From the NCBI GenBank assembly GCA_001873285.1, contig MNYV01000095.1:1-15200 (forward strand): a DNA stretch of 15,200 nucleotides. Reading direction: 5' to 3'. The DNA comes from Nitrospirae bacterium CG2_30_53_67. Its GTDB lineage: Bacteria; CG2-30-53-67. Of this stretch, positions 163 through 14,798 are shown one piece after another; the first letter of the stretch is position 1; each line of letters begins with the position of its first letter. The translations under genes were made by a program, and so were the position numbers. The notes beneath the pieces are model-generated. The model was not told the DNA's origin, ran no database searches, and saw only the letters and a program-made list of their open reading frames with translations.

Positions 163-220
163 GGTCGTTCTCCTTATGGGCCAATAGGGTCCGTCCCTCA
201 CGTCACTCATAGCAAGGCAT

Positions 221-249
221 GTCATTCCCCGACTCGATCGGGGAATCCA
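221..249 (-). repeat. REP-like hairpin, exact 29-bp copy of the one at 13616-13644
   Basis: This 29-bp unit has 9-bp perfect arms (ATTCCCCGA and TCGGGGAAT, 223-231 and 237-245) and a 5-nt loop. Its ends read GTC on one side and CCA on the other. It is the exact reverse complement of positions 13616-13644. It sits 12 bp from a second, diverged unit in opposite orientation, giving a BIME-like pair between sthA and the gene at the left edge. Hairpins of this style are scattered between genes in many environmental bacterial genomes. Confidence 0.85.
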
Positions 250-261
250 GATAAAACAAAC

Positions 262-290
262 TGGATTGTCCGGTCGAGCCGGACAATGAC
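262..290 (+). repeat. REP-like hairpin, variant unit with compensatory stem changes
   Basis: This is a 29-bp unit of the same frame as 13616-13644: it begins TGGATT, has a TCGAG loop and ends AATGAC. The stem differs at three positions, and each change is matched on the other arm: CC/GG becomes GT/AC, and A-T becomes G-C. Together with 221-249 it forms an inverted pair around a 12-bp spacer. Read on the minus strand, both hairpins lie downstream of the sthA terminator. Confidence 0.8.
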
Positions 291-306
291 AAAAAAAATA
301 TCAATA

Positions 307-327
307 AAATAGGGATGGCCCCTATTT
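307..327 (-). terminator. Probable rho-independent terminator of sthA
   Basis: An 8-bp perfect stem (AAATAGGG at 307-314, CCCTATTT at 320-327) encloses a 5-nt loop. Its first base overlaps the sthA stop codon. On the minus strand the stem is followed by TATTGA and then an eight-T run (about 291-299). The U-tract is slightly displaced, which lowers confidence a little. Confidence 0.6.
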
Positions 328-1715
328 CACAGCCGATTGACCCCGTTCAGCGCCGCCACCTTGTAGGCATCCGAAAGCGTGGGGTAGTTAAAGACCGCGT
401 TGATAAAATAATCAATGGTCCCGTTGAAGCTCAGGACCGCCTGTCCGATGTGGATGAGCTCGGTGGAACGCTCCCCGATGATGTGCACCCCCAGAAGCCT
501 GCGGTTCTCACGGTGGAACAGGAGCTTGAGCATCCCATAGATATCGCCGATGATCTGGCCCCTTGCCACTTCATTGAAAAAGGCCTGCCCGACCTCGTAG
601 GGGATCCCCTGCCTGGTGAGGCTCTCCTCGGTCTCTCCGACCATGGAGATCTCGGGAATCGTGTAGATCCCATAGGGGAGGATGTTCGATGGACCCGAGA
701 CCGGGCACTCCTGCATCAGGGCCGCACACATGGACAGGCGTCCCTGCTCCTGTGAGGTCGAGGCCAGGCCAGGCCCGCCGATGACGTCACCTGCGGCAAA
801 GATACTCGGCACGCTTGTCCTGTATTCCTGGTCCACCTCCACCCTCCCCCGCTTCCCTATATTTACGCCGATCTTCTCCAGGTTCAGACCTTCTGTGTTG
901 GCAGATCTGCCGAGGGTAAACAGGAGCTTCTCCGAGACCACCTGTTTGCCGCTCTTGAGATGAGTCACCACACGGCCTGGATGCTCAACCTCGATCTTTG
1001 ACATTTCTTCTCCAAGCCTCAGGACCACTCCGGACTGGCGCATCCAATAGGAGAGCGAATTCACGATTTCCTGATCGGCAAAAGTCAGGAGGCGCTCCTG
1101 CTTTTCTACGACTGTGACCTCGGTTCCGAGACAGGCGAAGATGGATGCATATTCACATCCGATCACCCCTCCGCCGATGATGGTCAGGGAGCGGGGGATG
1201 GTATCAATCTGCAGGATGGTGTCGCTGTCGTAAACCGTGGGTTCTCCGAAGGGGACTTCGGGCGGGCGGTTGGGCCTCCCACCTACGGCAATCAGAATCA
1301 CATCCGCCTGATAGTTCTCCACCCGCCCCTGGCTGTCCCTGACTGCAAGGGTATGAGCGTCTTCAAAAGAGGCCTCGCCATAGATGATCTCCACGTCGTT
1401 GCGGGTGAACTGGTCTATGATCACCTCCATCTGCCGGTGAACCACGGTATCCTTCCTATGCATCAGTTCCTGGAACTTGACGTTCTTCCCCAGGTCACAA
1501 TGGAAACCGTAGATGACCCGCTGTTTCAAGCCATAGAGATAGAGAGCGGTTTCACGAAGCGTCTTGCTCGGGATGGTACCGGTCTGAAGGCCTGCTCCAC
1601 CGATGAAGGGGTTTTTCTCGATGACGGCTACACGGCGTTTAAGCTTCGCGGCCTGGATGGCCCCTTTTTCCCCGGCGGGTCCTGAACCCATAACCAGAAC
1701 ATCGTATTTTTTCAT
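327..1715 (-). CDS. sthA: Soluble (Si-specific) NAD(P)+ transhydrogenase
   Basis: This cytosolic flavoprotein passes hydride between NADPH and NAD+ and balances the two pools. The FAD Rossmann motif GSGPAG is at residues 10-15, and a second dinucleotide fold, GGGVIG, is at 181-186 with an acidic residue (E204) at the end of its second strand. AAGDVIGG marks the C-terminal FAD contact, and the FNYPTLSDAYKVAALNG tail is typical of SthA rather than of lipoamide dehydrogenase. At the site where disulfide reductases carry CxxxxC, this protein has G42 and T47, so no redox disulfide is possible. The length of 462 residues matches E. coli SthA (466). The ATG at 1715 is preceded by GGTGGAG. A TTG at 1727 and a GTG at 1724 are in frame but lack a ribosome site. 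A promoter lies at 1846-1875 and a terminator overlaps the stop codon, so it is probably monocistronic. Confidence 0.93.
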   Translation of the reverse strand: MKKYDVLVMGSGPAGEKGAIQAAKLKRRVAVIEKNPFIGGAGLQTGTIPSKTLRETALYLYGLKQRVIYGFHCDLGKNVKFQELMHRKDTVVHRQMEVIIDQFTRNDVEIIYGEASFEDAHTLAVRDSQGRVENYQADVILIAVGGRPNRPPEVPFGEPTVYDSDTILQIDTIPRSLTIIGGGVIGCEYASIFACLGTEVTVVEKQERLLTFADQEIVNSLSYWMRQSGVVLRLGEEMSKIEVEHPGRVVTHLKSGKQVVSEKLLFTLGRSANTEGLNLEKIGVNIGKRGRVEVDQEYRTSVPSIFAAGDVIGGPGLASTSQEQGRLSMCAALMQECPVSGPSNILPYGIYTIPEISMVGETEESLTRQGIPYEVGQAFFNEVARGQIIGDIYGMLKLLFHRENRRLLGVHIIGERSTELIHIGQAVLSFNGTIDYFINAVFNYPTLSDAYKVAALNGVNRL

Positions 1716-1746
1716 GATCTCCACCAAGAGAAAACAAAAACCTTTT

Positions 1747-3055: not shown

Positions 3056-3174
3056 GTACGATCGAGTCTTTGTAGAGAGGACGCCAGGAAAAGAGCTTTC
3101 CTTTTATCCTGTTATCCGGGAAAGCCGCCTAAACTTCTTACTCAAGGGTCTCGGAATAGAATTGACACGGATTG

Positions 3175-3300
3175 CAAAATCTCCCCTCCTCCCTCCTCAG
3201 AGGGATAACTCCCCCTTACCCCCTCTTAAATAAGAGGGGGTCTCCCTTTGGAAAAGGGAGGCTTCGGCGTGAGCTCAGCCGAACGGTGAGGTGGGATTTG
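3175..3300. repeat. Composite palindromic intergenic element between namZ and pckA
   Basis: The gap 3056-3312 holds no gene. Within it, 3219-3228/3231-3240 form a 10-bp perfect stem (CCCCCTCTTA), 3242-3249/3253-3260 an 8-bp stem (CTCCCTTT), and 3263-3268/3278-3283 a 6-bp stem (TTCGGC). The outer edges, CAAAATCTCCC near 3174 and GTGGGATTTG ending at 3300, are roughly complementary, so the whole block can fold back on itself. The C-rich, G-rich style with AAATC..GGGATTT borders matches a dispersed repeat class common in environmental genomes. It lies just downstream of the pckA stop but has no U-tract, so I do not call it a terminator. Positions 3056-3170 show no clear promoter for namZ. Confidence 0.6.
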
Positions 3301-8620: not shown

Positions 8621-8845
8621 ATGGCTGCCCCGAATAGAATTCTGAAAGAGGCATTGAATCTAAAACCTGCAGAAAAAGCGGAACTAATCGACAAACTGAT
8701 TTATAGCCTGGACAAACCTGATGCAGAGATTGACGAATTATGGGTAAAGGAGGCTGAGAACCGGATTGATGCTTATGAACGTGGAGAGATTAAGGTTGTT
8801 GCATTGGAAAAAATTCTTGAAAAATATAAGCAGGATCCGAAATGA
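8621..8845 (+). CDS. Type II antitoxin, addiction module component family (TIGR02574 / PF09720)
   Basis: The 74-residue acidic protein should bind and neutralise the toxin encoded directly downstream, and repress their shared promoter. Family features include the N-terminal helix pattern ALNLKPAEKAELIDKLIYSLD, followed by DAEIDELWVKEAENRIDAYERGEIKVVALEKILEK, in which the W..EAE.R..AY..GE.K core is the hallmark of this antitoxin group. GGAG lies 6 nt before the ATG. Its last codon and stop overlap the toxin start (ATGA at 8842-8845), so the two are translationally coupled. The pair is visibly richer in A+T than bioA and glpK on either side, which fits horizontal acquisition. Confidence 0.88.
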   Translation: MAAPNRILKEALNLKPAEKAELIDKLIYSLDKPDAEIDELWVKEAENRIDAYERGEIKVVALEKILEKYKQDPK

Positions 8846-9132
8846 GGATCCGATTCTTGGAAATAGCACAGATTGAACTGTATGAAGCCATCGAATATTA
8901 CAACTATGAAGTATCCGGACTTGGTGAAGCTTTTCTGAGCGAAGTATTGAACGTTCTTGATAGAATTGGAAAATATCCCGAAGCATGGCCGTCTTGCTCA
9001 AAGCGAACCAGAAGGACTCAGACTCGGCGCTTCCCTTATGGAATCATGTATCAAATTCGGAAGGATGAAATTTTAATAGTTGCCATTGCACATCTTCATA
9101 GAAAACCGGACTATTGGAAAGACCGAATATAA
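8842..9132 (+). CDS. Type II toxin of the RelE/ParE superfamily
   Basis: The 96-residue basic protein has the usual ParE/RelE order: an N-terminal strand MRIRFLEIAQIELYEAIEYY, the helical GLGEAFLSEVLNVLDRIGKYPEAWPS segment, and the RRFPYGIMYQIRKDEILIVAIAHLHRKPDYWKDRI core that is highly typical of toxins paired with addiction-module-component antitoxins. Such toxins inhibit either gyrase (ParE) or translation by cleaving mRNA on the ribosome (RelE); the sequence alone does not settle which. It overlaps the antitoxin by 4 bp and is at full family length with no damage, so the pair is probably functional. It ends 34 bp from the convergent phosphodiesterase gene. Confidence 0.9.
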   Translation: MRIRFLEIAQIELYEAIEYYNYEVSGLGEAFLSEVLNVLDRIGKYPEAWPSCSKRTRRTQTRRFPYGIMYQIRKDEILIVAIAHLHRKPDYWKDRI

Positions 9133-13468: not shown

Positions 13469-13512
13469 AGGATCATGAGCACCCTCACCCGAAGGGTGTG
13501 CGACAAAAATAC

Positions 13513-13547
13513 CTGTCCTCCGATCCCCCGATCCAGTCGGAGGACAG
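13513..13547 (-). terminator. Hairpin with T-run, probable terminator after dnaJ; also a repeat-like unit
   Basis: CTGTCCTCCGA and TCGGAGGACAG make an 11-bp perfect stem with a 13-nt loop. On the minus strand it is followed by GTATTTTTG, a short T-run, so it may end dnaK-dnaJ transcription and separate it from rsmE. The distance from the dnaJ stop (about 140 bp) is large for a dedicated terminator. Confidence 0.45.
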
Positions 13548-13563
13548 ACCCGACCGCACAATC

Positions 13564-13586
13564 CACCCTTCGAGAGGCTCAGGGTG
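13564..13586. repeat. REP-like hairpin unit, CACCCT/AGGGTG type
   Basis: CACCCT and AGGGTG enclose an inner GAG/CTC stem. The outer bases read CCA at one end and TGAC at the other, the same termini as the 29-bp hairpin units at 262-290 and 13616-13644. The wording is familiar as a dispersed intergenic repeat. Confidence 0.55.
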
Positions 13587-13592
13587 ACAATT

Positions 13593-13617
13593 GTCATGGT
13601 GAGCTTGTCGAACCATG
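13593..13617. repeat. REP-like hairpin unit, CATGGT/ACCATG type
   Basis: CATGGT and ACCATG flank an 11-nt loop, GAGCTTGTCGA. The unit begins GTCA and ends in the TGG that starts the next unit, so it is in opposite orientation to its neighbour and slightly overlaps it. The pair mirrors the arrangement at 221-290. Confidence 0.55.
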
Positions 13618-13644
13618 GATTCCCCGATCGAGTCGGGGAATGAC
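13616..13644 (+). repeat. REP-like hairpin, exact 29-bp copy of the one at 221-249
   Basis: The 9-bp arms ATTCCCCGA (13619-13627) and TCGGGGAAT (13633-13641) flank the loop TCGAG. All 29 bases equal the reverse complement of 221-249, more than 13 kb away. It lies between dnaJ and rsmE. Confidence 0.85.
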
Positions 13645-13685
13645 GCTCTTAGAGAAATATGTACCCATAAATTTGTCGCAGACCC

Positions 13686-14798
13686 TCACCCGAAGATCCC
13701 CTTGACTTTTTCAAAAAAACTCCGGCTGATGGGATGCACATCCTCACCGCTGATCCGAGTAAACTCTTCAAGCAGTTCTCTCTGCCTGGGGTTGAGATGA
13801 GTGGGCGTCTCCACCTGAATCCTAACAAGCTGATCCCCGACGCTGTAGCCGTGCAGGCTCGGAAACCCTTTGCCCCTCAGAATGATCACGCTTCCGCTTT
13901 GGGTCCCCGGCTTGACCTCGATCATCTCCGGACCGTGGAGCGTAGGGACCCTGATCCGGTCGCCCAACGCCGCCTGGCTGAAACTGATGGGAAACTCACA
14001 GAGGATGTTGTTCCCTTCACGTGCAAAGAACTCGTGATCCTTGACCCGGATGACCACATACAGGTCGCCCCTCTGGCCGTTGTTCATTCCGGCCTCGCCT
14101 TCTCCGCTCAGCCGAAGCCTTGTGCCGGTCTCCACACCGGGAGGGATCTTCACGCTGATCGTCCGAACCGCCTGGACCTGTCCTTTCCCTCCGCACGTCT
14201 TGCAGGGGTGGGTAATGACCACACCTTCGCCGTTGCAATGACTGCAGGGCCGGCTGATGCTGAAGAAACCCTGCTGGTAACGCACCTGACCGAGCCCCCT
14301 GCACGTCGGGCATCGTTCAGGGCTCCGGCCCTTCTCAGTCCGGCGGCCACGACACTCACCGCAGGTCTCCATCCTCGGGATCTCCACCTCCGTCTGAAGG
14401 CCCATGGCCGCATTTTCAAAACTGATCTCCAAATTGTAGCGCAGGTCCGAGCCTCTCTGAGGCCTTCTCTGCCTGGCCTCCGCGCTTCCCCCGAAAAAAT
14501 CGTTGAAAATGTCTCCGAAGATATCCCCTAAACCGCCGAACCCTTCCGTCCGGAAACCGGCAAAACCGTTTGAACCCATGGTATGCCCAAACTGATCGTA
14601 CGTCGCGCGCTTCTGGGGGTCTGAAAGAACTTCATAGGCCTCATTGACTTCTTTGAAGCGGCCTTCGGCTTCCTTGTCATCCGGGTTCTTGTCCGGATGA
14701 TACCTCATGGCAAGACGGCGGTACGCCTTTTTGATCTCTGCATCTGAAGCGTTTTGGTGGATCTCCAGAATGTCATAATAATCTCTTTTTCTATCCAT
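13686..14798 (-). CDS. dnaJ: Chaperone protein DnaJ (Hsp40)
   Basis: DnaJ delivers unfolded clients to DnaK and stimulates its ATPase. The J domain fills residues 6-70 with HPD at 34-36. A Gly/Phe-rich region follows (71-105), containing repeated [14 protein letters not shown]. The zinc-binding domain has four Cys pairs: C146/C149, C163/C166, C185/C188 and C199/C202. The last three read CxxCxGxG, but the first reads CGECRGRR and loses its final glycine. Two substrate-binding beta domains and a dimerisation tail complete a normal 370-residue type I DnaJ. It starts 6 bp after the dnaK stop and is surely co-transcribed with dnaK. The ribosome site is weak, so coupling to dnaK translation is likely. 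The last codons overlap a 14-bp repeat that recurs at 13481-13494. Confidence 0.97.

Follow-up and report, generated by a model that had tools for sequence, protein, structure and literature searches.

The locus and its repeats

The window, 15,200 nucleotides of Nitrospirae bacterium CG2_30_53_67 (G000:C95), is part of a genome of 2.36 Mb that is distributed over 183 contigs and is 95% complete. Hairpin units of 29 nt are located at two of its intergenic sites, the first beside an ORF which we take to be transhydrogenase-like and the second beside a gene which we take to be dnaJ, both names being based on sequence motifs and general knowledge. Each site lies directly downstream of an ORF stop, between genes of the same direction. 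The features of the two sites are as follows.

183–198, plus strand: small hairpin AATAGGGTCCGTCCCT left of the pair; resembles 306–327 inverted, putative frame remnant
221–249, minus strand: CGTC-type REP unit, C type; stem ATTCCCCGA, loop TCGAG, TCGGGGAAT; TGG tail inward, TGTC head outward (220–223)
250–261, no strand: 12-bp spacer GATAAAACAAAC; its closest counterpart, at 11/12, is the spacer (GATAAAAGAAAC) of copy L201, which has the TA-bounded F3 frame
262–290, plus strand: CGTC-type REP unit, G type; stem ATTGTCCGG, loop TCGAG, CCGGACAAT; TGTC head outward
306–327, plus strand: hairpin AAAATAGGGATGGCCCCTATTT right of the pair; touches the end of the transhydrogenase-like ORF (327–1727, minus strand)
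13485–13493, no strand: left copy of the 9-bp target site duplication TCACCCGAA
13494–13685, no strand: 192-bp MITE, frame F1, with apparently ISKra4-type ends; holds the third unit
13494–13511, plus strand: left terminal inverted repeat (TIR) GGGTGTGCGACAAAAATA
13512–13565, no strand: decayed G-type REP unit and a further hairpin (CCTGTCCTCCGATCCCCCGATCCAGTCGGAGGACAG), ending in GCACAATCCA
13566–13615, no strand: inner hairpin dimer of another repeat family (CCCTTCGAGAGGCTCAGGGTGACA AT TGTCATGGTGAGCTTGTCGAACCA), replacing the ~12-bp spacer
13616–13644, plus strand: C-type CGTC REP unit, exact reverse complement of 221–249
13662–13685, minus strand: right TIR (GGGTCTGCGACAAATTTATGGGTA on the reverse strand)
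13686–13694, no strand: right copy of TCACCCGAA; opens with the three bases of the dnaJ stop codon (reverse strand)

A sequence-only reading of this DNA had placed the three units at 221–249, 262–290 and 13616–13644, and all of them are found there. The first and the third are reverse complements of each other with no mismatch in 29 nt, while the unit at 262–290 keeps TGGATT, AATGAC and the loop TCGAG and differs from the first at stem pairs 1 (C-G to G-C), 2 (C-G to T-A) and 6 (A-T to G-C), all of these changes being compensated. The BIME-like facing arrangement that had been described is also present, with the units 12 bp apart, the TGG/CCA tails directed inward and the GTC heads outward. 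The stretch 221–290 is a heterodimer of CGTC-type REPs, in which two hairpin units of 29 nt stand inverted to each other and differ in their stems. Small AATAGGG hairpins stand in inverted orientation on both sides of it (183–198 and 306–327); its flanks contain no F1 frame ends, share none of the frames defined below, have a weak inverted-repeat score, and yielded neither TIRs of a MITE nor a target duplication. Further intergenic repeats are located at 1727–1796 and 3144–3298 of the window and have several matches in the congener G001, and a 96-aa ORF at 8842–9132 resembles a ParE/RelE-type toxin and could encode one.

A lineage-specific pair next to genes

The congener G001 and the relatives G002 and G004 lack the pair at the orthologous site, and it is therefore lineage specific. 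In G002 and G004 the interval is short and free of any repeat. In G001 (L271, G001:C149:9900-10700) it holds an unrelated tandem TTTGAACCC repeat, which indicates that this intergenic site received different repeats in two species and leaves the exact empty-site boundaries of the pair unreadable there. The position of both window sites behind an ORF stop could suggest that selection keeps the hairpins for a function in RNA at the 3' ends of genes, as mRNA stabiliser, attenuator or terminator, and the copies in G000 agree with this in being mostly intergenic (30 tandem and 8 convergent locations versus 9 divergent, by rough ORF calling). Yet the orthologous sites lack conservation, no T-run follows the hairpins in the sense orientation, and an Rfam search of the window gave no match, so a role in RNA is regarded as improbable.

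Copy number and distribution of the units

The whole-genome search proposed in the sequence-only reading bears out the multi-copy character of the unit: the frame TGGATT-N13..19-AATGAC has 72 matches in G000 versus 0 for the reversed pattern, which is not chance, and a wider frame (N8-24) has 83 versus 1 in the reversed control. The copies in G000 were examined as separate stretches. G001, the sole congener in the comparison, has 22 frame matches, and four other family members have 1 or 2 each, which is the background level. Over 386 genomes the counts are patchy, with G025 (235), G250 (225) and G183 (198) far above the control. The exact degenerate 29-mer matched at least 118 stretches in named genomes; among the matches listed, the hosts are Alphaproteobacteria, Nitrospirota, Syntrophaceae, Treponema, Omnitrophota, Clostridia, Elusimicrobia, Stahlbacteria/WOR-3 and several candidate-phyla-radiation bacteria. 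The hosts reported in the 2013 survey are Proteobacteria, Chlorobi, Bacteroidetes, Spirochaetes and Thermotogae (Di Nocera et al. 2013, PMC3733652). The paired hairpins of the window are a lineage-specific copy of a palindromic repeat, the CGTC-type REP, that is common to many bacterial phyla. A few 26-nt CGTC-1-type units also occur in G000 (e.g. TGGATTCCCGCCTACGCGGGAATGAC; L001, C19, C81, C87, C164, C182) and form a separate family.

The units belong to the CGTC-tagged REPs

All three units are members of the CGTC-tagged REP super-family and not RAYT/GTAG REPs. The super-family is characterised by an unpaired CGTC, TGTC or CCTC at one end, an AT-starting stem of 8–9 bp, a loop of 4–5 nt, a CCA tail, the predominance of one type of inverted dimer, and no transposase gene flanked by its units. 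The unpaired head is TGTC at 220–223 and, on the reverse strand, at 288–291, and CGTC for 13616–13644; the 9-bp stem begins with AT, the loop has 5 nt and the tail is CCA. The predominant dimer is the tails-inward one (79 of 95 close pairs). GTAG REPs and BIMEs are excluded because their tag differs.

The inverted dimer architecture resembles that of REPINs, and three Y1_Tnp matches exist in G000, both of which would be expected of a bare dimer moved by RAYT/TnpA-REP (a Y1 HUH transposase), as GTAG REPs are. The tag nevertheless is CGTC/TGTC, and the link to RAYT that the sequence-only reading had raised falls away in the scan of the Y1 family: none of the 32 Y1/RAYT loci (the three in G000 and 29 in other unit-carrying genomes; 21 unit-carrying genomes and 95 kb in all) has a unit nearby. 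Moreover, G191 (135 frame matches) and G379 (44) carry units and have no Y1 match, and the multi-copy Y1 gene of G000 is flanked by a different repeat. Such a REPIN-like origin is considered very unlikely, and the reading of a RAYT gene flanked by its repeat was rejected after Y1_Tnp had been searched in this genome and 20 others with no adjacency to units. As observations apart from the units, the multi-copy Y1 transposase is cut by contig ends and preceded by AAATAGGGACAGCGCCCATTTTACTTG repeats (G000:C120:43493, G000:C136:13589; L032, L033), an arrangement that recalls the TIRYT elements described by Di Nocera et al. 2013. A further Y1 transposase, of 326 aa, is located at G000:C101:15868-16194 (L031); it is single-copy, has a long C-terminal extension and has no REP around it.

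The third unit is the core of a MITE

The unit at 13616–13644 had been described as an exact copy 13 kb away from the first. The copy is indeed exact, but it is not a free repeat: it forms the core of a MITE of 192 bp, with TIRs, no coding capacity and a perfect 9-bp target duplication. Because the right copy of the duplication begins with the dnaJ stop codon, the insertion left dnaJ intact. The element is absent from the dnaJ site in G001 to G005. Comparison of flanks showed that many dimers share sequence beyond the hairpins. The ends of this larger element, the frame F1, read GGGT[GC]TGCGACAAATTTATGGGTA in inverted orientation. Among the 20 F1 elements of G000 and G001 in which both ends are present, the 9-bp flanks are 76% identical versus 27% in the mismatched-flank null, seven of them being perfect, including those in the window; of the lengths from 2 to 12, only 9 bp behaves in this way. 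Matches to the TIR pattern number 50 in G000 and 27 in G001 (control 0), and its search in viral contigs and plasmids gave no informative match. The dimers are multi-copy, they are absent at orthologous sites of relatives, and many of them occupy the centre of TIR-bounded transposon frames of G000. The location of the third copy inside a MITE with a 9-bp duplication is new here.

Elements of the ISKra4 group have GGG ends and 9-bp duplications. Contig C177 of G000 carries the F1 TIR and then, 62 bp in, a stretch that matches the last 70 positions of an ISKra4-family transposase (NF033572, E 7e-31; 107.7 of 205 bits, which is below the whole-protein cut-off because the match is a fragment at the contig end). 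In contig C56 the same TIR precedes an ORF beginning MPESLSELERRRDG (PF20586, DUF6788). Some fifteen contig ends of G001 lie ~30 bp inside such an IS, as would be expected of a multi-copy IS that disrupts assembly; the search for a full-length autonomous IS returned contig-edge fragments only. F1 is the best-documented frame, and its ends probably match those of a resident ISKra4-like IS, known from fragments.

A second frame, F3, has the ends TACA[CG]AGCG[TA]CA[TG]AAR, is TA-bounded and carries the same CCCCGA/GTCCGG dimer; a third, F2, contains a CTCCGG/GCCCGA dimer and its ends are undefined. The same heterodimer core is therefore present in at least two unrelated transposon frames. Around the dimers of other phyla mostly no frame could be recognised, and transport by MITEs is accordingly indicated for the lineage of G000 only.

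Nesting of hairpins

The spacer of the F1 dimer is either ~12 bp long or a 50-bp hairpin pair of another family (CCCTTCGA...), as at 13566–13615, and the hairpin loops of the units often hold further palindromes. Such nesting may have arisen by insertion into palindrome centres or by growth through template switching. Two side observations concern the same structures. The hairpin dimer at 13566–13615, CCCTTCGAGAGGCTCAGGGTGACAATTGTCATGGTGAGCTTGTCGAACCA, is itself a heterodimer, its TGTC heads face inward, and it is multi-copy in G000 and G001. Another F1 MITE (L292, G000:C104:3700-7000, at ~261–432) has at its core an extended palindrome, nested and near-perfect, which is made up of CCCCGATC..GCCTGTCCT.. 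modules; as a rule, such long palindromes are not stable in bacteria.

Stem covariation and the heterodimer rule

In 63 distinct 29-mers, taken from all loci with no palindrome filter, 350 of the 378 pairs at the inner six stem positions are Watson-Crick pairs, versus 233 after shuffling. In the covariation test on 47 of these 29-mers, 96.0% of the cells are paired, 68 are double-changed versus 20.5 with shuffled and 5–8 with slid partners, and the covariation score is 0.449 versus 0.146; the outer three stem pairs are fixed by the search pattern, and variation at pairs 3–5 is underestimated because many loci were retrieved by a pattern that fixes CCG/CGG. The stem covariation pointed out in the sequence-only reading is statistically strong, but its claim that the structure and not the sequence is maintained goes too far, since the tails, ATT/AAT, the loop and the stem core are conserved too.

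Across many phyla, 78 of the 79 facing (tails-inward) dimers are heterodimers, where shuffled partners give 11.2 homodimers on average; 33 of the 79 belong to this genus and are largely copies of the same MITEs, and the 46 from other genomes alone contain 1 homodimer versus 4.0 shuffled (P 0.06, from a global pool which understates uniformity within genomes). All 16 listed close inverted pairs of G025 are also heterodimers, as judged by eye. A narrower rule, that a first stem pair C faces a G in the partner, holds in most dimers of the genus and is broken in other phyla; it was rejected in favour of the statement that the stems differ.

Folding with DNA parameters gives the window pair −20.7 kcal/mol as one long hairpin versus −19.1 as two hairpins, while the equivalent homodimer has about −40 versus −19 kcal/mol. 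Over 38 distinct real dimers the best fold is more stable than the two hairpins, with a median excess of 1.2 kcal/mol versus 19.4 in same-unit homodimers, and shuffled-partner dimers have an intermediate excess. By this calculation the separate hairpins of a heterodimer have nearly the same stability as the long form; homodimers would lock into the latter. As far as could be found, this energy balance is new here.

Compensated changes can also arise when templated correction perfects an imperfect palindrome, with no selection involved. It is conceivable, if somewhat doubtful, that the covariation reflects a mutational process (template switching) and that homodimers are lost to a palindrome-processing nuclease or to replication slippage, none of it involving a function. 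The greater stability of the homodimer hairpins (~20 kcal/mol) agrees with this, and Di Nocera et al. 2013 (PMC3733652), who found that heterodimers predominate in CGTC-2/3, suggested that they are protected from nucleases and from genome clearance. However, the tails, loop and stem core are conserved across phyla, unlike what a purely structural mutational bias would leave. As the cause of the heterodimer rule, the mutational process is compatible with the explanation preferred below.

How the dimers may spread

Taken together, our results make it quite probable that 221–290 is a CGTC-type REP heterodimer of a kind that spreads as the core of MITEs moved in trans by IS transposases, and that its stem differences are kept against collapse into a long hairpin. 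On this explanation the dimers would travel as passenger cores, and the MITEs would be mobilised by ordinary IS transposases and not by a RAYT of their own. The pair at 221–290 could have arrived by the same route, its frame having since decayed, or by an independent insertion. The stem differences would be retained because two identical units would fold together into a single long hairpin free of mismatches, on which palindrome deletion could act, and a heterodimer could stay as two hairpins. The units may also have first spread by another route and been captured by MITEs later. A bolder and more speculative proposal, which we put forward only tentatively, is that CGTC heterodimers are a phylum-crossing parasite that has no enzyme of its own, whose hairpins insert preferentially at palindrome centres (MITE frames, REP spacers, hairpin loops) and are carried by whichever IS transposase moves the outer frame, the stems having to differ in order to stay two hairpins.

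The spread of CGTC REPs has been open since 2013, when no carrying transposase gene was found and mobilisation by a wide range of transposases was a hypothesis only (PMC3733652). Pairs carried by MITEs are a possible answer to the question of how these REPs spread with no transposase of their own. The hypothesis is now testable because the same core is present in at least two unrelated frames, one of them with a clear 9-bp duplication and a probably matching resident IS. Together with its energy balance, the heterodimer rule yields a prediction simple enough to be examined in laboratory E. coli.

Comparison with known systems

The closest relatives are the 9-bp-stem families CGTC-3/4 (Di Nocera et al. 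2013, PMC3733652), which have the same CGTC/TGTC head, AT-starting 9-bp stem, 5-nt loop and CCA tail, and which likewise form mostly facing dimers with no attached transposase gene. What differs here is that the dimers often form the core of MITEs with TIRs and target duplications, that nearly all pairs are heterodimers, and that the host phyla extend beyond the 2013 list. Neisseria dRS3 (CGTC-1 according to PMC3733652) belongs to the same super-family and is also an intergenic palindrome mixed with other repeats, but its stem (8 bp) and loop (4 nt) are shorter and an ISKra4-type frame has not been reported for it. REPINs/RAYTs and E. coli BIMEs share the inverted pairs of short palindromes and the multi-copy, intergenic occurrence, whereas their GTAG tag and linked Y1 transposase are absent here. 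With IS-derived MITEs, those of an ISKra4-like element in this case, the F1 elements have in common TIRs like those of the resident IS, a 9-bp target duplication and no coding capacity; their interior, however, is not IS-derived but consists of hairpins of other repeat families, nested in one another. The earlier precedent for REP dimers inside palindromes comes from H. neapolitanus and A. variabilis, where the dimers are also central in a conserved larger palindrome. For those genomes neither a target duplication nor a related IS or a transposase was described, whereas all three are indicated here.
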